A stretch of DNA of 64,000 nucleotides from Rhea pennata (taxonomy: Eukaryota > Chordata > Aves > Rheiformes > Rheidae). Made by a program: the position numbers and the translations under genes. Position 1 is the first letter of the stretch; the number at the start of each line of letters is the position of its first letter. The notes beneath the pieces are model-generated. The model was not told the origin of the DNA. It was given only the letters and a program-made list of their open reading frames with translations, and ran no database searches. The stretch covers positions 23,179,493-23,243,492 of the forward strand of contig NC_084668.1 of NCBI RefSeq assembly GCF_028389875.1, read 5' to 3'. Positions 19,392 to 64,000 of the stretch are shown piece by piece.

Positions 19392-20829
19392 AATTACCAT
19401 GGAAGAACTATACTTAAAGTACAGAAGCTTTTCTAAAACTCTTTCAAGTTAAAATGTGATTTAGTACTAAGGACAAGCGCTTTTACAGTATCTGTTTTTA
19501 CAGAAAGGTATAGGATCGTGTAAACAAATTACATATAGTATGTTATGAAGCTTTCTTTCAAAACTGAGGCTTTCTAGGTAACATAATTACCAGTAAACAA
19601 ATGGCTGCCACAGAGAGAGAACCATTTCATACACTCTCCATGTCAGTGCTGCTTTAGAAAATAGTTTTAAATGCTCATTTTGTATATCATTAATAAGCAT
19701 TTTGTAACCGTAACATTTTCTAACATTTGTAACTGAAATAAGAAGTCTCTTTATTAATAGGAGCCTAGAAGACTGTGCCATAAATGTATTTAAAAATGTA
19801 AAGTATCAATTTTTAATGTCACTTTTTTTAAAAAAAAAAAGTCAATGTGCTGCTGTTACTACAGTTCAGAAAGCTTTGTAGGATTTTGAGAGGAGATGAG
19901 AAGGATTTTTAAGCTGAAACTCTGTCTCCTGGGTAGTCTGAGTTTCCCTGTTGCTTGCAAAACCCATAGGACATACTTGAATAAGGTCTTAGTTCTTCAG
20001 CTGCTGTAGTATTTCCAGCTTTCAGAGGCAGCCGATGTTTGCTAGTCTGCACACTGCTGAGACCAAGTGTGTTTGGTACTGTTCCAGGCGTTGTAATACT
20101 GAGGTAGCTCGATGAATGTGAAGGTGATTAAAAGGTGCATGGAGCTCAGCTCTATCAAAACACGGTATTCCCTGCCTCAGCAGACATGGCTAAAGAGCTC
20201 TAGTTGCACTTTTGTTTTCAGTGTTAAAATTAGCAGTGCATCGTGACCTCAGAACCCTGCTAGCTGCTTAGGAAGGAATTGGGACAAAATAGAAATCACA
20301 GAGCTCTGGGTCAGAGTATTTACAAAGGTTTGCATCTCAGCCCTCTACTGGCCCCTCAGTAGCAATTACCTCCTCCAGCCAGCACTGAATACTGGCAAAG
20401 TAACATGATACTTCTGGAATAAAAGGCGGATTTGTTTTAGAAGCTCCCTCTGGATGAGAATCTGGCCCTCAACTGGAGAGGGACAAAACTGGAAGATGGA
20501 GGTTTTGTAAGTAACTGAAAACAGTTTGTAAAACTGAGCACTGAATGAAGTAGTCTTTGAGCATAATGTTGTAATATCATGCCTGGAGAATTTATTTATT
20601 TATTAATGTGGCAAGGATTCCTCTTTATAGCGGCCTACTTTATTTCTTCATTTAGAGGTCAGCTATACATTTGAAGCAGAAAATGAGAGAAGGCAATTAG
20701 GTTTGCCATCTAGAGTACGATTTAAAGACCATCTGTCTGATCAGTTTACTGCAACTACCGTCTTAAGGGGACAGAATTCAAAAGAGTGTGTGTCAACCAA
20801 GCTTGTGCTACAGGTAAGGCAGAGGGTTT

Positions 20830-20864
<35 letters not shown>

Positions 20865-23800
20865 CTTCACTCAGACACATTTGAAACAAAAGCATACTTT
20901 GCTTTCAGTCTCATGGTACTTTATATATAACTAAAAAGTCATGCAATATAAAGCAACCATAGCTAAATAAGTAGTACCCTGATATTCCCTGCACATATGT
21001 TGCTTCCTCCTCTAGCCTTTCTTCTAAAGCATTAATAAAAGTTTCAGCTACTGTAGTGTACCCTGAAGGTCAATAGAGCTGACCTAATTTAGAAGAATAG
21101 AGAGGAAATAAGTGCCAAAAATTAAGAGCTGTTGAAATACACAGAAATAGATGTTGTAGAATTTAATGGTGTGCCTGGCTAGGGAAGGAGTTTTAATGCA
21201 CAACTTTTGGCAGGGATGAATGGGCAGGACCAGAAAGCTTTGTACATGCTTTCTGATTTGGTTGCTATACTGTCCCTTAAAGGTGACATTGCTACAAAAA
21301 CTGATCAAATTTTCTGACCGTGGTTCAGGTGTAATTACCCTCCAATGTTCCTTATAACTACAGGAAATTAAAAAACTTGGCCCTAAGAAATAGGGGGGAA
21401 GTGTGTCATTTTACTGTGGTGGTGTGTGTTTCACCTGCTTGAGTTACCATCAGGTAACTCAATGTTACCATTGATTACTAATGTTAATTAGTAATTAACA
21501 TCTGTGAGAGAAACCAAACCAGGAAGCTAGAGAAAAAGATAGTAGAGAGAGACATGGAGCTACTGGAGAGAGTCCAGTGTAGGGCTACGAAGGTGATCAG
21601 AGGGCTGGAGCATCTGCCCGATGAGGAATGGCTGCGAGAGCTGGGCCTCTTCAGCCTGGGGAGGAGAAGACTGAGGAGGAATCTTATCAGTGTGTATAAG
21701 TATCTGAAGGGAGGGTGTCAAGGGGACGGGGCCAAACTCTTTACAGTTGCCTTATGTGACGGGACAAGGGACAATGGGCAGAAACCTGAACCACAGGCAG
21801 TTCCGCCTGAACGTGAGGGGGAATTTCTTCCCTGTGAGAGTGACGGAGCACTGGAACAGGTTGCCCAGAGAGGCTGTGGAGTCTCCTTCTCTGGAGATCT
21901 TCAAGGCCCACCTGGATGCAACCCTGTCTGACATGCTCTAGGTGCCCCTGCTGAGCAGGGAGGTTGGAGCAGATGATCTCCAGAGGTCCCTTCCAATCTT
22001 ACTGATTCTATGATTCTATAGTAGTTATAAGATCCTTGTGTTCTTGCATGTTTTTAGAAAATGCTGATTATAGTGAATAGTTTTAATATTGCAAAATATA
22101 TCAAGAGAGATTTTGCTTCACAGCATGTTACAGAATTTATATCAAAAGCTGATCTTTGCGTTCTGTCTTTTTGTCTTCTCTATACTGTATACTAACTATG
22201 CCATTTAAAATATTTTGACAGGAAAAAATTAAAGATAAGCTACGCCCAATTCCTGTATCAGTTAGTGTGAAAATTGCTGGCCTGGAGTCTAGCTCGCCAT
22301 CCGTAAGAAAAGAAAGAGCACTTCCGGATCTTATACCAATTCTAAATTCAGATGAATCTGAAACAAAGACCACAAAAGTAAGCTTTTTGTATACCATATT
22401 TCCAAGAAATAAGCACTTTACAAAGTTGCTAAATTTTAGAGGGTATAGAAAAGTAAATTATGACCAAAGGAAATAACTGGAGCGACACTGGACTTACGAC
22501 TACTGGTTTATATTTTGCTTTGCAAAATGTTCTGACCTTGATCCTGTATTCCTCGTATAACCGAAGTGAGGATGGTATAGCTGTTAGGGTCCCACCACCC
22601 CCAGTAAATTTAGGAAGAAACATGCTTTGGATTAAAATGGTAACCCATCATTTCCTGCTGTGATCATTTGTCCCACATCACAGGCTCTTGCTCAGTCTAA
22701 TTTTCTTGTGTTTGGGATGCTCTGACCATATGATAGCTCTGCAGCTGTGATGTAAGAGAGAGAGAGTACTTTGGGTAAAAGATCCCATTTCCTCAATCCT
22801 CATTGAAGAATAAACTTAAAGATGTTTTGCCTCACTTGAGGTGCCTCACTTAGAAGGGCAAACCACCAAGTTTTATCTAACTTTGCCTTTTAATCAGTCG
22901 TGGTTTCATTTACCAGTGATAAGGTCTGTGTGTCACATAAAAAAGACTCTCTTGACTTCCCTAGGTAAGAAATGGACTGAAGTTAAGATCTTGTTTTACC
23001 AAAAAAGTGTCTCTGAGCTCTCTGTAGATGCTTAATGCAGTGCACATCAGCAATCTTAAGTTAGTGTCATATGGTATGTAATAAAAATGTTTTGGTTTTA
23101 TTTAGGTGGAGTTCTTAAAAGAAGGATGTGGAGAAGACAACGAATGTCACAGCAATCTAAAACTTCAGTACCGATTTTGTACTAGAGAAGGAAATGAAGA
23201 TAGATTTACCTATTTACCAATGTAAGCCTTGATTGATGCGTTGCTAAAATTCAAGTTATCAGGAAGTGCTGAAGAGGGCTTTTGAAGAGGATTTTTGGGT
23301 GACTTAAAGAGCTTGGCTCTGTTAGTCTAGCAAGAGGAGGTACAAACACAGGGGAGTGGGGTCAGCCTGTTGAAGGAAATTGGTGGTGCAGAATCAAATG
23401 GATACAAAGAGGCCATAACCATGCAGTTTTAGGCTAAAAATTAGAATAAAGTTTCTAACCAATACAGAATTGAGATTTGAAAGCAACCTTGCAATAATTT
23501 ATTGCCTCTGCTATTGTTAATTAATAGTTAACAAATTATTGTTAACTAAGATGAAATTTGATCACGAGTAGGACAAAATGTTACACTACAGTACCAAAAA
23601 ACTGTATGACTTGATTCAGTCCAGTAGCCTTAGACAAGCAGTTACAGAGAAGTGAACAGACAAATTTTCACCATAACACATGCACAACACCCATCTCATC
23701 CTTCCTTCTGGGAAGACCAGTGAAGTTAGAAACAAGAGGTAAAACAAAACCAAATATTTAATTACCATGAATTGCCTTTAGCAGTAGGTACTACAATGTG

Positions 23801-39707: not shown

Positions 39708-42700
39708 GTGAGCGCGGGGCGGGCGCGGGGCCGCTTCCCTCCGCGGCGCGGCGCGGCTTCCCCGGCCGCCGGGCGAAGGGAGCGCGCGGGCACCTGCGCG
39801 TCTGGGGGGCGGCGGCGCTGCGCGCTCGGGCCGGTCCCCGCCGCGCTCGGCGGCGGCGCCTCGTCGCGCCGGTCCCCGCCGGTCCGCGCCGGTCCGCGCG
39901 CGCCGAGGGAGCCCTCGGAGGCGCCGCGCCCGGGCCGCGCGGGCAGCGGGAGCTCGGCGGCGGCGGCCCCTGCGCAGCTGCTGCTCGTTACTTTCAGTAT
40001 CTCCTTCCTGGCGTAAACAGCCTCTGCTTTGCTGTGGGAGAGGGAAAAGCCTCCGCGGCTTCCAGGAGGGAGCCCCAGCCGGCTCCTTCCCCGGAGACAG
40101 GAACTGAGGCAAGGTTGAAATCCAGCTGAAAACGCACGGTTTTGATACCAAGGAAGTCTGATCCTGTGCAAAAACCGCAGTGAGGACAAGGGGAATTGTG
40201 AGAACTGCTGCTGCTAACACTGACTCAAAAAGTAAGAGTTGTCAGGACCGCTGAAGGCTGGCAGCGTGCAGGCTCTAAATTTAGTGTGTGCCAGTTACAT
40301 GGGATGGAAACGCTTAACCTCGGTTGGAGCCGGAGCTGAAGCAATAATGACATCCCAAACACAATCATGTGTTTTTGCCCTGCAAAAACCCTTTACGCAA
40401 GTGAAATGTTGCTTATTTGAGAAGTTGCGTGAGAGAAGGAGAAGAAAGGAAACCCCAGGAACCATCCTGAATGCTAATTTACTTATTTTCAAGGCCAGAC
40501 TCCCAGTCAACAGAACACTCTGGTCTTGTGCTCCTCACTAAAACCACTCGTAAGGCTCCCAGGTTGGACCGGCTGCTTGGAATCTAAAGGGAGCACAGGA
40601 ACTGTCCTGTTTCGCTTCCAAGCAAATACCGCACAGAGAAGGGCTTGTGAGCAAAGCGGAGAAACCTCCCTAAAGCCTGGGGAAGGAGCCATGCTGCAAC
40701 ACATTCTCTTTCTGTAAACATGTAACTAGTTAATAGTTATACTCTTTTTTAACTAGGTTTGAAGTAAAAACATAACTGAGAACTAGTCCTAGAATCCCAG
40801 ATTTTTAAAATAAGGTAAGTAGGGAGATTTATAAAGAAAAATCTCTATACATCCGTTCAATGTTTCATACATTGCAACAATGTATATCACTTATTCAAAG
40901 CTCTAGGTTTCTACAGGAGTCCCACCATGTAACTTTTGTTACTGCTGTTTTCAACAAAGAATCATGCGATTCAAAGTAGTAATTCAGTGCAGTTCAACCT
41001 GTATTGTTTTACCACTAAAATACCAATAAAACAATGCTTACCTTATAATCAATATTTATTTTCAAGGCACAATATTTTGTCATGTCAAAAGTCAGGCTAC
41101 TGCTTTGCTATTAGTACCTGAACACAATGTGAAGATAATCTCGAAAGATGTTTTTCTTTTTTCTTTTCTTTTTTTTTCTTTTTTTTTGCTTAAGCATTTA
41201 ACACAAAAGGGGAAGGAAACTAATAACAAAGATAAAGAGTAGAGTACAAAATTGACACAGTAATCATCTATAAGAAATTCGGTAGCCATTATCATCTGAT
41301 GGTGTTTGTGTTTGGGATTTTCTTGGTTCTGTTTGCTAAAGCAAGAGCAGTCACAGAGAAAATCATAAAATCCAGCAAAGCCAACTTAAAAAAATAAATG
41401 CTTCTGGCTCCCTCACTTGTCAGTATAGTAAATAAAGTATTTTTCTAAGAAAATTCAGGTCTCAATCTTATACATCTGTCATATTCTGGGATATATGCTC
41501 ACATAGGAACCTTTTCTTTGCATAAATAGTTCATAACACAGGGAAACATTTTCTTCATTCCCTGAAGTCTTCATTACCCTAAGCTGTCTTCCATCTTTGA
41601 CACAGTGATTGTGAAGATATGGCCTCCAAATACAAAACTAATTTGTGGGATGTTATTTGCTGAGTGTTTAGGGAATTTGAAGATTATCTCTACATTTTAG
41701 TATCTTCAATTTGAATTGTTATGGAATTTTGTCTGGGAATAGGGAAAGGCTTGTAATAGTCACACACCCAAAATGAAAGCTGGTTAGGGAAAAGAATGAG
41801 ATATTTCTGGGCAGAGATCATATCTAGAAAATGCACAACATTCTTGTGGTGGTCCCATTTGCCTCTCTTTAACATGCTCAATAAGTACCACACATTGTTT
41901 GATCAGCACTAGTTAGAGTCAATGTCTGTTGCAAATAAAATGAGCGCTTTACATGGATAGAAACCATACTTGAAATGGAATGGTATGGATCTGCATTAGT
42001 GCACCAGTTAGTCTTTGTATATAGTGAGGAATATATAAACGCTTCGTATAGGGAAGATTTTCCTTATTGTTACAGGGCTGGTAGATTTCAATATGATATT
42101 ACATTTTGAAATACAAGAAGGCTGTTGCCATGAAAGAAACATATTGGCTGACCAAACTAGCCCAGTCAGCTCCAAAAGTAAACCACAAGCTTCTTGCACA
42201 AGAAAGTAAGTTTATGTAGGTCTATCCCACAGATGTTGACTTTATTCTAATGTTTTCAATCTATTTCTTTTGGTTTTAGGATCTGAAAATGCTTGTGAGA
42301 AGACTTCATTTATGTTTCTGCGACAAGAGTTGCCTGTAAGATTGGCTAACATAATGAAGGAAATAAGCCTTCTTCCAGACAACCTTCTAAGAACACCTTC
42401 AGTTCAACTGGTGCAGAGCTGGTAAGAATAGCATCATTTCATACCTTTTAAAGGTTAGAAAAACAACACACTCTCTTTTATAGAAAGAGCATTTCATGAG
42501 CACATTACATGAACATTACTTATTTGGACTGAGTAAACATCCCATTGTGAGATAAATCAGAAACTACACTTGCAGATACTGGAAAAACATCTTGGAACAA
42601 TTAGAGAACCCACAATGGAATTAAATATCAATAGTCAACTTAGCATTGCAGAATATCATGCATGAGATTTCATTAACAACAAATTCACCTCAGCAATGTT

Positions 42701-45700
42701 TAATAGAGGCTTATCTAACATGAAGAAGCTAGCTGAAGGAACATAGCTAGCTGTGCAGATAAATGCACAAAATGCTTGTAAAGCAGAATAGAAACCATTT
42801 AAAAGACTGGTAAATGCATATTCAGACTAAAAGTATAGAACATATGAAGAAAGAGTAATAGGAACCTCCCAAAGCCAAGTTTTTAAAACAGCGAAAGCTC
42901 TTTGTTGCAATAGGAGGCTATTACAACTAAAAAGAAAACTAAAATTTGCTTTCAATTAAGGAATTTAGAAGTAAGCGTAAACTTTTGTAGGATAAATGCA
43001 AAATAAAGAGATGCAAAATAAACTGCTGAAGGTACATGGATATTTGGAAAAGGCTTTTAAAGTAAGAGAACGAAGTCTGCTAATGAATAACTGGGACTGA
43101 TTAGATGAATATAAAAAGCGATTTCAGTGAAGGTGGAGGCTCTCCATGAAACATGAAGGCTAAACTTTGTACGATACTAAATAATGGTGATAAAATGGGA
43201 AATGAATTTCACTTGTACAAATGCAAAGTAAAGCATGGAGAAGAACCTCCCACCCACCTAGTGTGATTGCTTACAATCAGAAAAGAAATTTTGATGCTAC
43301 TGGGGATATTTTTCTGAATATGCTAGTTGATGGGCAAGAAAACAAATACCTTGTTAAGAACTAAGTAGGAAATGGGGAGGGGGGTGGAAATATAATGGTA
43401 TATCACTGTGTTAGTCCATTATTCCTCTGAACTGCATGCAGATTTAGTTACCCCATCTTGAACAGAAAAGATCAAGAGGGATAATCAGATGTTTGGAACA
43501 ATTTCTTCATGAGGGGAAATCAGAATTCTTCAGCTGCAAAAATGCATAGCTAAGAAATACTTAAATCATGAACAAGCTGGAGAAATTTTCTAATATGTAA
43601 ATAAAATAACAGGAACTACTTGAGGATGCAAGTAAGTGATTGCCTACTAGATTTAAAGCTCAAGGAAGATCTTTTATACATTCTAATTACATTCTGGAAT
43701 CAATTACACTGTAAATTTTGGAATACAACAGTAAGAATGGATTCAAAAGGATCTGACAAAAATTCACAAGTAATTCACAAGGTCTGTTGGATATATCAAA
43801 TAATGATCTAGATGCAACCAGCCTTGGAAGACCATTAATTGCTAATTGAACGGAGCTGGGAAGCATATTAGAATTGGTCTTTGTCATATTTCTTTAATTT
43901 AAAGGTATGTCCAAAGTCTTCAGGAGATCCTTGACTTTAAGGACAAAAGTTCAGAAGATTCAGGAGCTATTCAGAGGTAAGGATTTCCTGTCACATGTGT
44001 TATTATGTTAATGTTATGTAAAAGGACAGGCAAGAAAAAAATTGGCTCAAGAAAAATTTCAACTATCTTAAATTCCTGCAGTCGCAGTAACATCATCCTC
44101 TGCCTCTGAAAGGAAAGTACATTAGAACATGAAAAAAAGCACCTCCTTTTATTTGAAATTGTTCTGGTCTCAGGGCTTTTTTTTAACACTGAATAAGCTG
44201 CAAGTACGTTAAGCTTGACCAATTTTTTTTGATCAATTCCTTACTTGTAGTGTTGCAACTGATGTGTGGAACTTTACAACTGTAGAGTATATTGGGGCAT
44301 CATTGACTGATATTAGCTGCCATTTGATGGGCATGGGATGATTTGTATGAAAATGATTGGCAAAATTTTCTCATTTTTCTTGTGGCACCATTATTAATAG
44401 ATCAGTGTAAGTTGCTTGAAATGATTTATATGCTGTCAAGACTGACCTGCCTTCATACTGTGGTGGGTAGATCTGTGATATTTCTGTTCGTAGTTGTCTT
44501 AATTCTCTGAGGCAGATACTCACTCGATTTTCCAGAGTATTAAACTCACTTGAAAGTGAAAATCTAACAATGAATTAATTTTAGTTTTACAGATACCGTG
44601 ATAAAAATCCGGAATCGACACAACGACGTAATTCCTACTATGGCTCAAGGAGTAATAGAGTACAAAGAAAGCTTTGGCATTGATCCGGTGACCTCTCAAA
44701 ATGTGCAGTATTTTTTAGACCGTTTTTACATGAGTCGCATTTCAATTCGAATGCTCCTTAATCAACACTGTAAGTGCTGTTGTTGCAAGGAAGGGAAATA
44801 ATACATGTAACATGCCCAGTATATTTTCCATTCATTTTATGTGCTTAACATGAACTTGTTTTTCATATCAATGCACCATTTATAAACTTCTCTAATACAA
44901 TTCTTAAAATATTAATTAATAGCCATTTTAATTATGCTAAAGATTGTACTTACAGAATGTTAATAAATTTCTATTCAGCAATACCAAAGATGCAAACTAA
45001 AAATTACAAAATTATGTTGGGTATTAAACATTATTTTCTTTGTTGGCAGCTTTGTTGTTTGGTGGGAAAATTAATCCAGCTCATCCAAAACACATTGGAA
45101 GCATTGATCCTAGCTGCAATGTTGTTGAAGTTATTAAAGGTAAATTTAGGAGATGGGAGCAAGAATTTTGTAAAGTTGTATGAATATCTATATTGAGAGC
45201 TAATACATTCACATAGTGTTTAGATCTTTCTTACCTGGAGCAGAAGTTTCATTTCAAATGTAGAACAGTTTTGTCAGTTTTCATATTAAGCTCAGTTTTA
45301 TAAGAAAATACAAAAACTCCCTGACAGCATAGAACATCTTCAATTTGTGACTTTTTTTTTTCCCGGCAATCTAAAAAAACAAGGGAGGAGGGAGGAATTA
45401 AACCTTCTGTGTTTTTATCATAGATGGCTATGAAAGCGCTAAGAGACTTTGTGATTTATATTACATGAGCTCTCCAGAGTTCATCCTTGAAGAGTTGAAT
45501 GGTAAGTGAATATGGGATGAGGCATTATCTTGAATGTAATAACTTCTTCTGAAGTACCTGATACTAAAATATTCTCCTTCCACTTCTCATAACTAATTGA
45601 GTCTTTGTATATATTATCCTAAAAAAAACCCTTTTTCTTGATCTTGCAAAAGGCTTCCCCTATTTCTCCTTTTCTTTTCCAAAATTAGGAAGTTTGAACC

Positions 45701-55759: not shown

Positions 55760-55765
55760 TTTATT
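55760..55765 (-). terminator. Candidate poly(A) signal, neurabin-like gene
   Basis: Plus-strand TTTATT is AATAAA on the minus strand, about 170 bases after the minus-strand stop codon. This is a plausible 3' end for the neurabin-like gene. Confidence 0.45.
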
Positions 55766-55936: not shown

Positions 55937-56104
55937 TTAGCAGCTTGATTCAAGAGTGGTTACCCCTCTGCCACTCTTGCGAACTTCTCGCTCCTTCTTT
56001 TGTACTTTTTCCTTCTGTTTTTCCAGTTTTTCTTGTGTTTTTTTAATATCCTTAATTTTTTTCTTTATTGTTGATCGGTCATTTTGACTGGAAACTCCTA
56101 AAGC
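55937..56104 (-). CDS. Neurabin/spinophilin-like gene, terminal exon
   Basis: The minus-strand acceptor is cccaaag. The exon encodes ALGVSSQNDRSTIKKKIKDI, then a charged heptad-like stretch (KKTQEKLEKQKEKVQKKERE) and a short tail ending LESSC, with stop TAA at 55937-55939. It completes the SAM domain begun in the upstream exon and adds the C-terminal coiled coil typical of neurabins. Joining to the upstream exon is in phase 0. The gene converges on PDK1. Confidence 0.88.
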   Translation of the reverse strand, partial: ALGVSSQNDRSTIKKKIKDIKKTQEKLEKQKEKVQKKEREVRKSGRGVTTLESSC

Positions 56105-57437
56105 CTTTGGGAGAAAAAAGAAAAGGACTTTGTTACTATATATATATTTTTTAAACTTCAAAGCATATTGCTTCAGCACCAACAGTTTAAGAAAGGGTTG
56201 TTCACTTTGCTGCATGATAAACAGACTAAGTCCTCAAGGGCATCATTAATGATCATCTCCGTAGCAAAAGTAATAAGGAAAAGGTGGTCTACTCTTCTTT
56301 AGCTGTAAAATAACAGCTTCTCATTGCATTTTACATACAGATAGACATGTGAAAATTTCTATTAAGTAACATACTAAGAAAAGTAATCATTCAAAAATAT
56401 TTTCATAGCTTCTTTTATACAGCAGTGATTCATATTCTCTAACCACCGTTTAACTTTTGTTAACTACCTTTTTTTGTAACCTAGGAAGGTTGCTGAACTC
56501 AGATCAGTCAGCTGTAGTTTTTAACTGCTTGAGAAAAATCCAGTCCATGAACGCAGATTCCAGAAAGCTCACGTTTCTTTTGAAATTGCATAGCAAATAA
56601 AAGGTAACTCAGGGAATGAAAAAACTCCAATAACCACCCATAAAAACTTAATACTGTGAAAAACAACCCAAAACCTCAACTGTTTTTTGCTTCTTCCTGC
56701 TACTCTTGAGAAAGTGACACTACTTAAAGACAAAAATCCCCCCCACAACACAATAGTAGCTCAAAATTTTTTCTTCCACATACATTAATGAGTTATGTCA
56801 ACAGTGAGCCAATGAAGCTTCTTGGTAACAAGACCTATGTACTGTAAATGATCAGATTTCAGAGATATTTCTTTGATGATGTACCATTAAAATTGTGACT
56901 ATCTACTTTTTCAAGATTAATCATTTTTATCAATATGTAGTATGCTAACTTACTCGATATGCTACTCCTTAGCCTGCCTGTCATTGCTCATCTTTAACTC
57001 ATCTCCCATACAAAGGCTACTTTTCCTTTTGTCTACTTTTGCACAGTGTTGTCTATATTTTGCATTAACTGGACACATGTTCATTTTAAAATAAGCAAGT
57101 ATTCAATGCATAGTCAGCGCACTTTGATTTTTAGATCAGCAGATGGCAGTATCTGATTTCAAGTGACAAGATGGTGCTACAACACTACAGAACTCCTAGT
57201 GACATTAAGTGTAAATCAAATTTTAAGCATCAACATCACAAGTTTCTCAAATTATAAATATTCATGTGACAAACTTCAGTCAAGTATTTTCTCTGCATCC
57301 AAAGACACGTTTATTTAGCAACATAAAGGAAATATAGTGTATATGTCTATTGTATACTATTGTACTGGATCTTGTTTTCTTCACCTTATGCTGAGATGGG
57401 TTATAAACTTATCAAGCCTCTTGTGGGAATTACTTAT

Positions 57438-57456
57438 AAAAAAAAAAAAAAAAAAA
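57438..57456. repeat. A homopolymer (19)
   Basis: An A run in the intron between the last two exons of the neurabin-like gene. Confidence 0.85.
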
Positions 57457-57695
57457 CCCAAAAATCCAAACTTCCTCAAGCTACCAACAAGGACAAAATA
57501 TTTTATATTTTCCTAACGAAAAAAATAGGAATCTCAATTATTAAATTCTCATTGATCAGTATATTGTGTTTTAAAACCATAATTCTATCTCTAAAAATTC
57601 ATGAAGACAAGAAACTAGAAAGACTTCATGGGTAAAAACATCTGAGTAAGCACTGAAATTACAGATTACAGATGCATACTGGAATAGCCACATAC

Positions 57696-57884
57696 CTTTA
57701 ACTTATCACTATCAAGCTGCATCAACTGCTGTCCGTCTATGTTCATAGCTGTAAACTCTGTAATATACTGCTCCATGTTCATTCCCATTAACCAGTGGCA
57801 TACTTGCTGGGTTGTCCATTCAGAAATAGGTCTACTGTGCCATTGATTTTGTTTTCCTGTTGTTGCAAATTCATCATCTAATGC
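57696..57884 (-). CDS. Neurabin/spinophilin-like gene, SAM-domain exon
   Basis: This 63-codon, phase 0/0 exon lies on the minus strand, with acceptor ggttag and donor gtatgc. It encodes ALDDEFATTGKQNQWHSRPI, then the SAM domain from WTTQQVCHWLMGMNMEQYIT to GQQLMQLDSDKLK. In the neurabin family (PPP1R9A, PPP1R9B) and the related SAMD14, a SAM domain of this kind near the C terminus is followed by a coiled coil. Neurabins bind F-actin and protein phosphatase 1 and anchor it at synapses and junctions. Those N-terminal domains would lie outside the window, so PPP1R9-like and SAMD14-like cannot be separated with certainty; I favour PPP1R9-like. No such gene is expected here from the mammalian map. 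Confidence 0.88.
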
Positions 57885-59667
57885 CTAACCAATTGAGAAG
57901 AGTCACCGTAAGTAATAAAAAATGATAACTGATTTACTTGACTATATGTTGAATTTAGGTTGCCTGTTGAGTCTGGGTAACAAAATGCATTTTTAAACAT
58001 AGTCTAGAATTTCTACAGTGCAAAGCTTCAAAATTACTTGTGTTTTTGAGATTACATCTTATAGTGAGTTTGCCTAGTGGGTTCTTATAAACAAGTGGAC
58101 ACCACACAATAACATCCAACGCAAATTAAGACAGAAATCCAGAACACGTACAGTTTTCTCTAAGAAATATGATCTTCATGAAACCTGTTCTCACAAAATG
58201 GCAGAAGTTTTGCTCAAGTCTGGCTTAATGTATCTAAAACAATGAACAAGATTCCTCAGTCAGCCAAGGTAGCTCAATCCTAATATTAGATGCTATCTTA
58301 CACAGCGCTAAGAAGTAGCACTTAAACGGTATTACATGATATTTTCAAGTGAAGAAAAATGGGAATTAAAAACAATGCTAGTATTCACTAAATCTGGTAA
58401 CAGTTCAACTACAGTTTTTCTAGATTTGGTATACTTCTACCATGTAGACCTTTTAAAATGTTGATGTGATAGGATTAGGTGAAAGAGTTAAGTCTTCTCT
58501 TAGAAGTCCATTTGAGAAGCATCAGAGCTTGTAGTATTCCACTAAAAATACACTTCCCAGTTCTCAGAGCTTTTGAAGCTCCTTGCTTCATTTTCAGTTG
58601 GCCTCCAAGGGGAGAAAGGTACAGCTGCTAGTCCTGAAGCACTTTATTACTTCATCACAAATGAAAAGCTACATAAAACAGAGCTCAATCTCTATAAAGA
58701 AGAAATTCTAGTGTGAGAGCTGAATCAGAGAGACATCAGAGTGGCTTGAACCTTTATTAACTATCCGAAATGATCTCTCACTACTCATGACCTAGTACAG
58801 GCTGCATTAAACTTATATTCCAAAAGCTCTCTAGGTAACTTCCACTCTATATCAAAGATACTTGCAAAACAGATACTAATCCAAAAATATACTACTGCTT
58901 CCAGTGAGCTTATATGAATGTCATTTGTAAAGAGGGAATATGGAAGTAAATGTCAATGTACTGATGGATTTGAGAAGTAACCTTGCAAGTTTCAAGTGAA
59001 CTAAAGCTCCAAAAACTGAGGATCTCACAAAATCCATCTCCTTTGCTAGAAAATGTGGGAAAATGGAGTACACCTCAGTAATTCCAGCAAATTACAAGTA
59101 AAAGATTGAGAGACTTAAGCTTGTAAAATATGATATATGATTATATAATAAACTGGATCCAGGAGGTTAAAATGGAACAGTAAAGCATGTGAGTTGAAAT
59201 AAATATTAAATTTAAATTTCAGATGTGTTAGAAGACTACCCAATTAGAATCTCTTTTGCTTTTCCTAGTCCATGAAACACAGGACAGTGGTTATTTTATG
59301 AGGTAGTATAGATAAATACAAACAGATTTGTAGAGTAAGCAGTTTGTGCTGAGGCCCTGAAATCCATACCATATGCATATCAAATAATTTTTACTTCAGA
59401 AGAACTATACAGTCTGGTCCTACAGATTCAGTGCCCATTAGCAGCTGAAACGTATCAGGTGCATTTTCAGAGTGTATCTTCTAGTTTGATTTCCAAGATA
59501 AATCAAAGAAAGGTTAAGTGGAGACAATGAAGAGATTCTGAAGTGAACTCCAAATCCAAATTAAAATGCCAATGCAGACATAAATGTGAACACACTCAAA
59601 TTGCTGATGTGCAAAAGAATAGCAACTTCCACAAAATAACAAAGAGGTTTCACAGCATCACACTGGA

Positions 59668-60082
59668 TCACAGAATGGTTGAGGTTGGAAGAGACCTTTG
59701 AAGATCATCTAGTCCAATTCCCCTGCTCAAGCAGGGCCACATAGAGCAGGCTGTCCAGGACCTTATCCAGATGACTTTTGACCACTTCCAAGAAGGGAGA
59801 TTCCACAACCTCTCTGGGCAACCTGTTCCAGTGCTTAGTCACCCTCACAGTGAGAAAGTGACTGTTGCCTCTTGTCCTGTCACTGGACACCACTGAAAAG
59901 TGTATGGCTCCATCTTCCATTTGCCCTAGTTCCTTAACCATCTTAGTGGCCCTTTGCTGGACTCACTCCAGTAGCTCCATCTCTCTTGCCCTGGGGAGCC
60001 CAGCACTGGACACAGCACTCCAGGTGTGGCCTCACCAGGGCTGAGTAGAGGGGGAGGACCACCTCCCTTGACCTGCTGGCAG
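59668..60082 (-). mobile_element. CR1 LINE fragment, antisense
   Basis: The left end carries CACAGAATGGTTGAGGTTGG followed by the CR1 3' block. The minus strand reads [17 protein letters not shown], a CR1 ORF2 C-terminal phrase. Recognisable CR1 ends near 60082 at CCCTTGACCTGCTGGCA. The copy lies in the presumed intron of the neurabin-like gene. Confidence 0.92.
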
Positions 60083-60109
60083 GTCCTCTAAACCTGCTGG
60101 TTTAGAGGA
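60071..60109. repeat. Nested hairpins at CR1 5' end
   Basis: ACCTGC/GCAGGT (60071-60076 with 60079-60084) is immediately followed by an 11-base perfect stem, TCCTCTAAACC (60084-60094) with GGTTTAGAGGA (60099-60109), loop TGCT. The phrase ACCTGCTGG is repeated at 60071 and 60092. All of this lies at the truncated 5' boundary of the CR1 copy. Confidence 0.85.
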
Positions 60110-60358
60110 GGTTTTGCCTGAAGTAATTTCTGCAGCATTTGTATCAAGACAACTGTGGCACAGCAAGTTTCCTATCCAAGCTGAGATGCTTGGCATACAG
60201 AAATAAAAGTCATTGTATAAATTACTAACAAAATTTGAAAACACCTGTTTGCTTTAAAAAACAGTGTCTTTGTCATTGTCTGCTTGAGTCTCGTACCCCT
60301 CAACCTGATGCTGTAACATCAAAATATATATCAGTAGGACAGAAGCTTGATTTGTGGC

Positions 60359-60376
60359 AATAATAATAATAATAAT
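60359..60376. repeat. (AAT)n microsatellite
   Basis: About six AAT units in the intron of the neurabin-like gene. Confidence 0.85.
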
Positions 60377-61488
60377 GTCTTTGTCATTAAAAACTATTGT
60401 AATTGATGTTCATCAGGATTAAAATTATTTGCAGAACATTCTAAATCTAGAAGATTCTTAAAATAAATTTATGAACTGTCATATTCAGAGTCATCTTCAC
60501 AGATAGCTACAAATAAGAAGTATGGACATGGCTAAGGCCAACAACGATAGTAATTTAAATATTTGTTAATCAGTTTTGCAGCCTATCTACATTGAAAACC
60601 ATCAGCACTAAGCCAACAGCATTTTGTATGACCCACTAAGTCTTATGAATCATACACTTTCAAGTCTATTGGAAACTGGTAGGTTTATTTTGTCTCACAC
60701 TAGCAATTGCTCATGAGTTATACACAAGAATTAGGAAACTTTTGCACTTCAAGTTTGACCTGAATCTCAGAATCATGTGCGTGTCAGAATAGACAAGAAA
60801 ACACCAAAATATATTACCAGAACCATAAAAGTCAGATATACTGAAAAACATGTAAAATGTATATTCCTCAGCTGGAACTCACTACTGGTTTTAAATTTTA
60901 TTTAAACTATGTTAGCTATGCAGCAACCTCACTTCTGTGATTTTAGAACATCAATATTTAAGAAGGAATATTCATGTTAAACAGACCCAGGTTCATTCAT
61001 TTCAGGAGAATGTGTTTCCCTTACAGAAACACGAGGGGCTCTTTGCATCACTTCCTCCAAGCAACATTCGAGCAGCTCATCACAGACTGTACCACTAAGG
61101 ACTCTTCTAAACTGTGCTACTAATTTCACTTAGACTTTTGGCACATCAGTCACCAGCAAACTCCTTATATTTCAAATTAGTAAAGCCCTAGGCTCTATTG
61201 ACTTCCAGCTGACAGTTTCTAAAGCATTCAGGATTCTCAGCTAATGAGATGCAGCTTATTTCTGGCCAAAGTGCAAGAGGGTCAGAACCTATTTTATTTT
61301 CTGGTAGTCCTTTAATATTAAGAAAGGTTTTTTACCATTACATTAACTGCCTGTTGGTATTTATTTTAAATAAAAAGCAGTATTTTAGAAGACAACCTAA
61401 CCCATTCATTCTTTAAAGCTAACATCAGAAAAAGTAGTACCAAAAATTGAACATGTATTAAAAGACTTAGACATCATCTCCTCATAAA

Positions 61489-61492
<4 letters not shown>

Positions 61493-61521
<29 letters not shown>
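61493..61521. repeat. A homopolymer (29)
   Basis: An uninterrupted A run in the presumed intron of the neurabin-like gene. Confidence 0.85.
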
Positions 61522-61523
<2 letters not shown>

Positions 61524-62330
61524 TCTAATCCCCTATTATTGTAATTTTCACTACTGCACAAAGGAAAAAACATAGTCTTGGCTATTTTGAGGAATAAGCC
61601 ATTTTTCTAATCTAATAAAGAAGAGGATAACATGAGGAATGTCATTAAGAGACTATTAACAGAATTCACTGTCTAAGCCTCCTCACTTTTCTGTTGATTT
61701 AGCATAATACCAAACTCAAGGCATTTCAGATATTCTAATACCATTCCCACTTCAATTCACAACTGCAACGAGAAATCTGGAAACAGATATTTAGCATTTC
61801 TCCCTTGGATTCTACTATATTTGGTTGCTTTAAGTTGGAAGAAGATGCAGTTCAGGATAATACCATTATCTATTCAAGTACTATTTAAGGAGAGCTACAT
61901 TTTTATTAGAAGATTCACAAATAACTAATTGTAACAGTACAATCAGTGCCAACCTTATCTCCACTATGGAGAAAACAGCTTATAGGGTAGGCAGACTTTT
62001 ACTTTATGAAAAACACAGAAGAGTGAAATGAACATTGACTTCAAGTGATGCTTATGGATTATTAAGTAACACCTGTAAATCATTTTTTCAGTTGTCTACC
62101 TTCCAGAGGCAAAGGGCTGTCCCATGGTGTTTGTACATCAAAGGAACAGTCCCCAAAACAACCCCCCCCCACCCTCTCCAAGGAAAAAACAATCAACCAT
62201 GAATTCAGAAAGCAGAACTAAAACTGCTCAGGAAAAAAGAAAATATGAGAGAGGAAATATGTTCTACCACATAGAAGTGCTGGCAGTTCAGAAAGTAAGT
62301 AAGGACAGAAATACTAAAATATATTATCAC

Positions 62331-62396
62331 AAAAAAAAAAAAAAGATGAGAGAGAAAAGAAAATAAAAAAAAAAAAAGAAAAAGAAAAAGGAAAAT
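62331..62396. repeat. Purine-rich simple tract
   Basis: An almost pure A/G stretch with A runs and GAGA motifs. It is simple sequence without coding meaning. Confidence 0.8.
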
Positions 62397-64000
62397 ACCC
62401 AAATGCCTTCATATCAATAACAGATTAAAATTTTTAAAAAGGATTAGAGGGATACCAGCTAGAGCTTGCTAACAACTCAGATGAGGAGCTGAGAAGCTGA
62501 ATACGGCGGAGGTGCCTTTGCTCTACCTAGCCGGCTCCTAGCAAACTACCCCAAACTGCCTGCGAGTTTCTGCTCAGTAGAGGCAGGCTGAAGCGCTGCT
62601 CCGCTCTCCAAGAGGTGTTGCCATCCCTAGTTGTTCCTCTGAGAGCACGGGGTGTTATACGGGCTAACAAGATCCCTGACGGGTATTTCTAAACTCATCC
62701 AAACAACAAACAAGGGAAAGAAATTCTGCCTGTGAAGGGTCATTAAATTAGGAATTTTAAATATCCAGAATTGCTCTAAGAATGATCAAGATTTATTACT
62801 TATTTTTTCTAAGCCTCAACTATACACATATTAACCAAAGAATTTTAAGAGTCAGTTAGGAGTAATTCAAAAGCAATTATTGAACCTTTAGCCCACTTCC
62901 ATAGCTACTGAGTGGATTAGCAAAGAGCAAGTTAACAACATTGCCTCACTAAAAGCATGATAACCTGCACTCTCAGAGACTGAAAAGCTGTAAACATGCT
63001 CCAAAACAACCAACCTTCCCCTTCCTCCTCAGCTACCTGGTTTTGTTCACACCCTTTCCTGCCCAAAAGAGAAACAAGCTCAGTTTTTATCATTATCCCT
63101 GGAACAGACTCTGATAATCAACACAATTACTAAAAAGCTGCAAAAAACTTTCATTGCTCATGCATATAAACAACATACAAACTAGAGACAACACTAAAAT
63201 CAAACTAGTCTATGACAAAATAGGCTTAACAATTGCTTCACACATACACAGTTGGCAAAAGGCAACTTTTGTTGAAATTTTAGAATCAGAGATTAAGTGA
63301 AGTTGTAACGTTAATGAAACAGCAGCATTTAAGGCAATAATTTAAGGCTTTGGTAGTATCTTATGATCTATATTGCTTGAAAGTTTAGCAACACAAACAC
63401 CATTCAAAGCTTGATTTAAGATAGCCCACCATTCCCCCCCCCCCAACATTATTACTACCAGTTTGACCAGCCCTTTGCCAACACGTTTCTGGAAGATGAT
63501 GGTGCTCAGCTTTTAATGATCCCCTCCCTAGTCTATAAGGCATTTCATTTATAAAGATGCCTACCAGTCAGACAATGAACGAGACAAAAACTTAGAATGT
63601 TATAAAAATATGGATTTCAGGTTTCAGCTGTGGGCAAAGGAGATGGTTCTGCCGGGAGAATGAACACTGATTTTCAAATATAGCTTTCCAGCTACATGCC
63701 AGAACAACTTTATCCTGAAGGTGGCTTTTTTTTTTGTTTTGTTTTGTTTTTATTTTTAAAAAATAAGACAAATAACAAGTTTAGCTTAGCACATATCTGC
63801 ACTGGTGTGAGGGCAAGGTGAAAAACACTGTAGTTTTCATTCACACAATAAACTATTCAGGTTATTGTAACACGAGCATCTTATATTTATAATTAAGAAT
63901 TGCAATTTGGTCACACCAAATTTATTCCAATTTTTAAGATGTAACTAAAAACAGAACACAGAATCTCATATGGCATCTTTCAGTCTATGTCCTTAATTCA

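Follow-up and report, generated by a model that had tools for sequence, protein, structure and literature searches.

Two minus-strand exons in a 64,000-nucleotide window of the Rhea pennata genome are the 3' end of a full-length, apparently intact gene of the neurabin/spinophilin family. The gene is very probably a third vertebrate member besides PPP1R9A and PPP1R9B, namely an ohnolog ('PPP1R9C') that dates from the early vertebrate genome duplications, sits in the DLX1/2-ITGA6-PDK1 paralogon and is absent from two published human gene lists. The window, i.e. the whole stretch of DNA analysed, covers C6:23179493-23243492 (C6 is contig NC_084668.1) within a genome of 1.27 Gb.

Gene model and protein domains

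The two exons in the window have the clean splice borders and the phase 0 join described in the earlier note (Table 1). Joined, they encode 118 residues matching Pfam SAM_2 (E 2.2e-17) and SAM_1 (E 3.2e-14). Among 69 distinct PDB sequences at E<=1, the SAM domain of neurabin-1 (2gle) is the closest match (E 1.8e-24), followed by liprin-beta-1 (E 5.6e-13). The Pfam and 2gle values rule out a chance SAM match. With the basic coiled coil, they bear out the neurabin-type C-terminus proposed from the letters of the exons.

Table 1. Coding exons of the third neurabin gene and neighbouring features. Positions are those of the window, continued past its right end (64000) for coding exons 1 to 12.
Feature	Position	Strand	Remarks
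Coding exon 1	103580-101976	-	continued window coordinates
Coding exon 2	88895-88763	-	continued window coordinates
Coding exon 3	88280-88160	-	continued window coordinates
Coding exon 4	87634-87530	-	continued window coordinates
Coding exon 5	87355-87235	-	continued window coordinates
Coding exon 6	85794-85651	-	continued window coordinates
Coding exon 7	83810-83757	-	continued window coordinates
Coding exon 8	80947-80718	-	continued window coordinates
Coding exon 9	78971-78875	-	frame, splice sites, resemblance; among the least certain
Coding exon 10	78792-78609	-	frame, splice sites, resemblance; among the least certain
Coding exon 11	77809-77658	-	continued window coordinates
Coding exon 12	64268-64152	-	continued window coordinates
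Intron 12, part in the window	57885..64000	-	remaining coding exons further right
Coding exon 13	57696..57884	-	most of SAM domain; acceptor ggttag, donor gtatgt; splice sites, phase 0, SAM_2
Intron 13	56105..57695	-	GT-AG, phase 0; cuts SAM domain
Coding exon 14	55937..56104	-	SAM end, basic coiled coil, stop TAA; acceptor cccaaag
AATAAA, possible poly(A) signal	55760..55765	-	starts 172 nt past the stop codon; consensus match only
PDK1 exon	44577..44771	+	convergent neighbour of the neurabin-type gene; isozyme 1 structures match best
Upstream exon of the same PDK gene	42282..42422	+	PF10436
Two integrin-alpha exons	20646..22389	+	PF08441; ITGA6 by position

The gene model was built from the window and the adjoining 200 kb of the same contig, and exon borders were picked by eye, using homology and reading frame. 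It comprises 14 coding exons over 47.6 kb, with GT-AG borders and consistent phases at 13/13 introns. The coding length of 3,420 nt corresponds to 1,139 residues plus stop, free of internal stops. Exons 14 and 13 lie in the window and the other 12 of the 14 past its right end, between 64152 and 103580 in continued coordinates (C6:23243644-23283072). In the adjoining 200 kb, four PP1-PDZ exons were hit by a spinophilin probe, with identities of 84%, 87%, 76% and 57% and E values from 6.6e-21 to 2.1e-9; a weak hit (E 0.06) fell on the end of the first exon, where RKVKF is encoded. The rightward search for PDZ and PP1-binding exons suggested by the earlier note thus found both. A neurabin-1 probe identified the coiled-coil exons, with 70% identity for the coiled-coil exon, and gave no significant match to exons 9 and 10. 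An open frame at 59705-59962 (minus strand) sits inside intron 12; we take it to resemble a CR1 LINE reverse transcriptase at its 3' end.

In this model of genomic DNA, continuous phase through exons 12-14 places the SAM domain in the same gene as the PP1-PDZ part. A short SAMD14-like gene is ruled out by the 12 modelled upstream coding exons. The SAMD14-like reading of the earlier note therefore fell: PP1, PDZ, coiled-coil and SAM parts are all present, as in a neurabin of full length.

The order of domains is neurabin N-terminus, RKVKF PP1-docking motif, PDZ, coiled coil and SAM. Above the Pfam cut-offs are PDZ_5 (residues 506-567, E 1.2e-28), a single neurabin-type PDZ domain (PF00595, 576-658, E 7.9e-14) and SAM_2 (1043-1105). 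RKVKF stands at residue 525, and the conserved PP1 string of neurabins comes after it, identical at 26/30 positions to neurabin-1 (9gsu) and at 26/30 to spinophilin (3egg). Over residues 525-661, identity is 120/137 to 9gsu and 112/137 to 3egg; for the PDZ domain it is 79/92 and 73/92, respectively. Fourteen of the 137 residues are unlike both proteins. They include residue 641 in the PDZ domain (Phe; Asn in neurabin-1, Ser in spinophilin) and residues 580-582 (GDS; DED in neurabin-1, DSE in spinophilin). As a guess, these private residues may shift ligand choice.

The N-terminal exon starts MMKTEGKGERTLRSASPHRNAY and can be aligned with the paralogous exon on C2 in several conserved blocks (46% identity for the first-exon part). 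In neurabin-1, the N-terminus is the actin-binding region. The coiled coil is 68% identical to the C2 locus and 59% to the C26 locus. The SAM domain of the third gene shares 38/64 residues with C2 and 32/64 with C26, which share 41/64 with each other; it is the most diverged of the three loci. The intron interrupting the SAM domain occupies the same codon and phase in the C6, C2 and C26 loci.

Over 126 codons of the PP1-PDZ part, dN against the C2 copy is 0.076 and dS is saturated at 3.36 (NG86, dS being computable for this one of three pairs), which places this part under purifying selection. A decayed or untranscribed copy is highly improbable, given an open frame of 3,420 nt over 14 exons, canonical borders at every modelled splice site, the low dN against saturated dS, the AATAAA downstream and a CpG-rich stretch upstream of the ATG at 103580 (104000-105499, CpG o/e 1.09-1.26). 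The gene is presumed to be expressed.

By homology, the protein would most likely work in the manner of neurabin-1. Its N-terminus would bind F-actin, and RKVKF with the string after it would dock protein phosphatase 1. The PDZ domain may recruit substrates or membrane partners, dimerisation may rest on the coiled coil, and the SAM domain may add self- or partner association. The net role would be that of an actin-bound targeting subunit, placing PP1 at actin-rich sites. PDZ recruitment of substrates is described for neurabin and spinophilin with 4E-BP in an excerpt of one report (PMC12185105).

Family copies, orthology and synteny

A genome search with the PP1-PDZ part gave at least 15 matches at E<=0.001: four exons each on C6, C2 and C26, and three others with 42-44% identity on C61, C1 and C16. 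The SAM search gave at least 16 matches at E<=10, two each on C6, C2 and C26 and ten others (best E 0.0013). Besides the gene itself, the best SAM matches in this genome were exons on C2 (E 9.9e-15) and C26 (E 3.1e-8). At least five coiled-coil matches at E<=0.01 were distributed over C6 (three), C2 (one) and C26 (one). The N-terminus gave at least two matches, on C6 and C2; the N-terminus of the C26 copy, absent from them, was either missed or is too diverged. Prokaryote genome contigs searched for the PP1-PDZ part yielded 129 pattern matches and viral contigs searched for the N-terminus 18, none of them confirmed.

In the PP1-PDZ core, the C2 copy is identical to neurabin-1 structures at 124/126 (9gsu) and 123/126 (3hvq) residues, and the C26 copy to spinophilin at 123/126 (3egg). 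These three structures are presumably mammalian chains. The third gene reaches 111/126, 110/126 and 104/126, respectively, and 110/126 and 105/126 to the C2 and C26 copies of its own genome. A tree of six sequences, unrooted and without an outgroup (the fly neurabin 4xhv was not among them), recovered the B pair in 500/500 and a three-member A group in 482/500 neighbour-joining bootstraps. FastTree supported the same two splits with 0.99 and 0.83. Identities and tree both place the third gene outside the PPP1R9A and PPP1R9B orthologue groups. By sequence, the C2 copy is assigned to PPP1R9A, the C26 copy to PPP1R9B and the third gene to neither, as follows from the separate C2 and C26 orthologues and from its position in the tree.

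A translocated or misassembled PPP1R9A or PPP1R9B orthologue, to which the PPP1R9A-like domain order and the 110 of 126 residues shared with C2 might point, is virtually impossible. Both orthologues lie elsewhere, at separate C2 and C26 loci that refute this reading, with 123-124/126 identity to the solved proteins and each beside a PDK gene of its own; assembly duplicates are excluded by the 105-110/126 identity of the third gene to them. The additional family member beside PDK1 proposed in the earlier note was thus upheld, including its placement in neither orthologue group.

Somewhat less remote, yet very unlikely, is a younger duplicate of PPP1R9A, restricted to one lineage and inserted beside PDK1. 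The PP1-PDZ core shares eight sites with C2 against C26 and three with C26 against C2, as such a duplicate might. Against it stand the saturation of synonymous sites and the position of the third gene outside the mammal-bird PPP1R9A group in those 482 bootstraps, which makes the split older than that between birds and mammals. The convergent PDK neighbour at all three loci is likewise what duplication of a whole segment yields. As the tree is unrooted and limited to six sequences, it is synteny that dates the split.

The exon at 44577-44771 matches structures of PDK isozyme 1 with 124.6 bits and those of isozymes 2, 3 and 4 with at most 104.5 bits (15 distinct sequences, E<=1e-10). By this comparison the neighbour is PDK1, in agreement with the earlier note. 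PDK1 was the sole neighbour tested by name; the other names on C6 are taken from family, position and gene maps. The integrin-alpha exons in the window would be ITGA6, going by their position in the human gene order.

Four PDK loci were found in the genome (eight matches, two each). Three of these loci pair up with the three neurabin loci as convergent neighbours, all within 70 kb; between the nearest exons found, the gap is 11 kb (C6), 69 kb (C2) or 4 kb (C26). The search for the DLX N-terminal domain (DLL_N) gave three matches, at C6:23.09, C26:3.21 and C2:28.28 Mb. The distance from the DLX-type gene to the PDK exons is about 132 kb on C6, 30 kb on C26 and 0.6 Mb on C2. Integrin-alpha exons (14 matches in the genome) at C6:23.20 and at C26:3.235 Mb agree in order and orientation with respect to PDK; none lies near the C2 locus, the closest on C2 being nearly 4 Mb off. 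Duplicated neighbours thus comprise PDK at 3/3 loci, DLX-type genes on 3/3 contigs and integrin-alpha at 2/3 loci.

This pattern points to a paralogon of the early vertebrate genome duplications. Most likely, the third gene is the third ohnolog of the HOX/PDK paralogon, and the label 'PPP1R9C' is proposed here; the duplication event itself is inferred. Counted against this explanation are the unrooted six-sequence tree, the C2 locus without a near integrin-alpha gene and with its DLX-type gene at a distance, the C26 N-terminus that was not found and the SAM domain, the most diverged of the three. The fourth PDK locus (C1:130906191-130923872) had no neurabin-type match nearby in the SAM, PP1-PDZ, N-terminus and coiled-coil searches, whose match counts are lower bounds. 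By elimination, this locus (C1:130.9 Mb) would be PDK3, and a fourth neurabin ohnolog seems to have been lost there.

Human locus, SAMD14 and implications

DLX is followed on C6 by integrin, PDK1, the third neurabin gene, two RasGEF exons at 23.51 Mb (out of 42 matches) and, at 23.61 Mb, a SAM exon. This order fits the human one, DLX2, ITGA6, PDK1, RAPGEF4, ZAK. One human list, seen in an excerpt, gives DLX1, DLX2, ITGA6, PDK1, RAPGEF4-AS1, RAPGEF4 and ZAK in order (PMC3704668). An excerpt on a human deletion names HAT1, METAP1D, DLX1, DLX2, ITGA6, PDK1, RAPGEF4, ZAK and CDCA7 (PMC6756287). Neither list, as excerpted, has a neurabin between PDK1 and RAPGEF4, which agrees, for human, with the mammalian map given in the earlier note (PMC3704668; PMC6756287).

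An orthologue that persists elsewhere in mammalian genomes, or unannotated beside PDK1, is unlikely; what speaks for it is that the comparison covers these two published human lists in excerpt. A spinophilin PP1-PDZ probe retrieved 14 PDB sequences at E<=1e-20, including neurabin-1, spinophilin/neurabin-2 and the fly neurabin 4xhv, with no third vertebrate neurabin among them, solved structures being a sample only. None is described in the open-licence literature searched, mostly at the level of titles; a table of carp miRNA targets, seen in part, names ppp1r9ala. Databases likely carry the gene already under an automatic name such as 'neurabin-1-like'. The novelty is the recognition of a third ohnolog and not of an unannotated stretch.

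On C26, the PPP1R9B PDZ exons (region 3262200-3264600) are followed 11 kb downstream, on the same strand, by SAM exons (3250454-3251226, region 3249580-3252726). From their position, these SAM exons are taken to be SAMD14. The C26 layout, the common SAM intron and the human gene pair suggest that a SAM-tailed neurabin split in the B copy, and SAMD14 looks like its split-off tail. The layout of the third gene suggests a route by which SAMD14 arose beside PPP1R9B. In the part of the report available, PPP1R9B and SAMD14 are two adjoining human genes, and a cow PPP1R9B prediction overlapped SAMD14 (PMC3833843). An excerpt of another report aligns the capping-protein-binding segment of Samd14 to a region of neurabin-1 at 64.7%, which suits this reading (PMC9282853).

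Vertebrates would then have begun with at least three neurabins. On balance, it seems probable that in non-mammals 'PPP1R9C' survives next to PDK1 as a complete PP1-actin scaffold, so that accounts of synapse biology in mammals stem from a reduced set. The A and C copies would keep the ancestral one-protein form; the B copy would have broken into PPP1R9B and SAMD14, a detached neurabin tail. A role in PP1-dependent neuronal plasticity is ascribed to neurabin and spinophilin, which by recent work act on 4E-BP and p70S6K, according to the excerpt (PMC12185105). If the proposal is true, findings on redundancy and knockouts in mammals need not transfer unchanged, and the third member is a natural comparison for the role of the SAM-bearing form.

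Comparison with known family members

PPP1R9A (neurabin-1) agrees with the third gene in the sequence of its parts (N-terminus, PP1 motif, PDZ, coiled coil, SAM) and in the SAM intron position; it has an alignable N-terminal exon and, as the copy in this genome, a PP1-PDZ core identical at 110/126 residues. It differs by its locus on C2 beside another PDK, by Asn instead of Phe 641 and DED instead of GDS 580-582, and by a post-SAM region that aligns with a gap of several residues.

PPP1R9B (spinophilin, neurabin-2) shares the PP1 string (26/30) and the PDZ domain (73/92, both to 3egg) and is 59% identical in the coiled-coil exon. Its copy in this genome is identical at 105/126 residues, and the third gene differs in having PP1-PDZ and SAM modelled as one gene. 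Spinophilin is not known to have a SAM domain of its own.

SAMD14 shares the SAM and coiled-coil end and the SAM intron position, with 32/64 residues identical between the third gene and the C26 SAM domain. In the human genome it is a separate gene beside PPP1R9B, according to the part of the report available (PMC3833843), whereas the SAM domain of the third gene ends a long PP1-PDZ protein.
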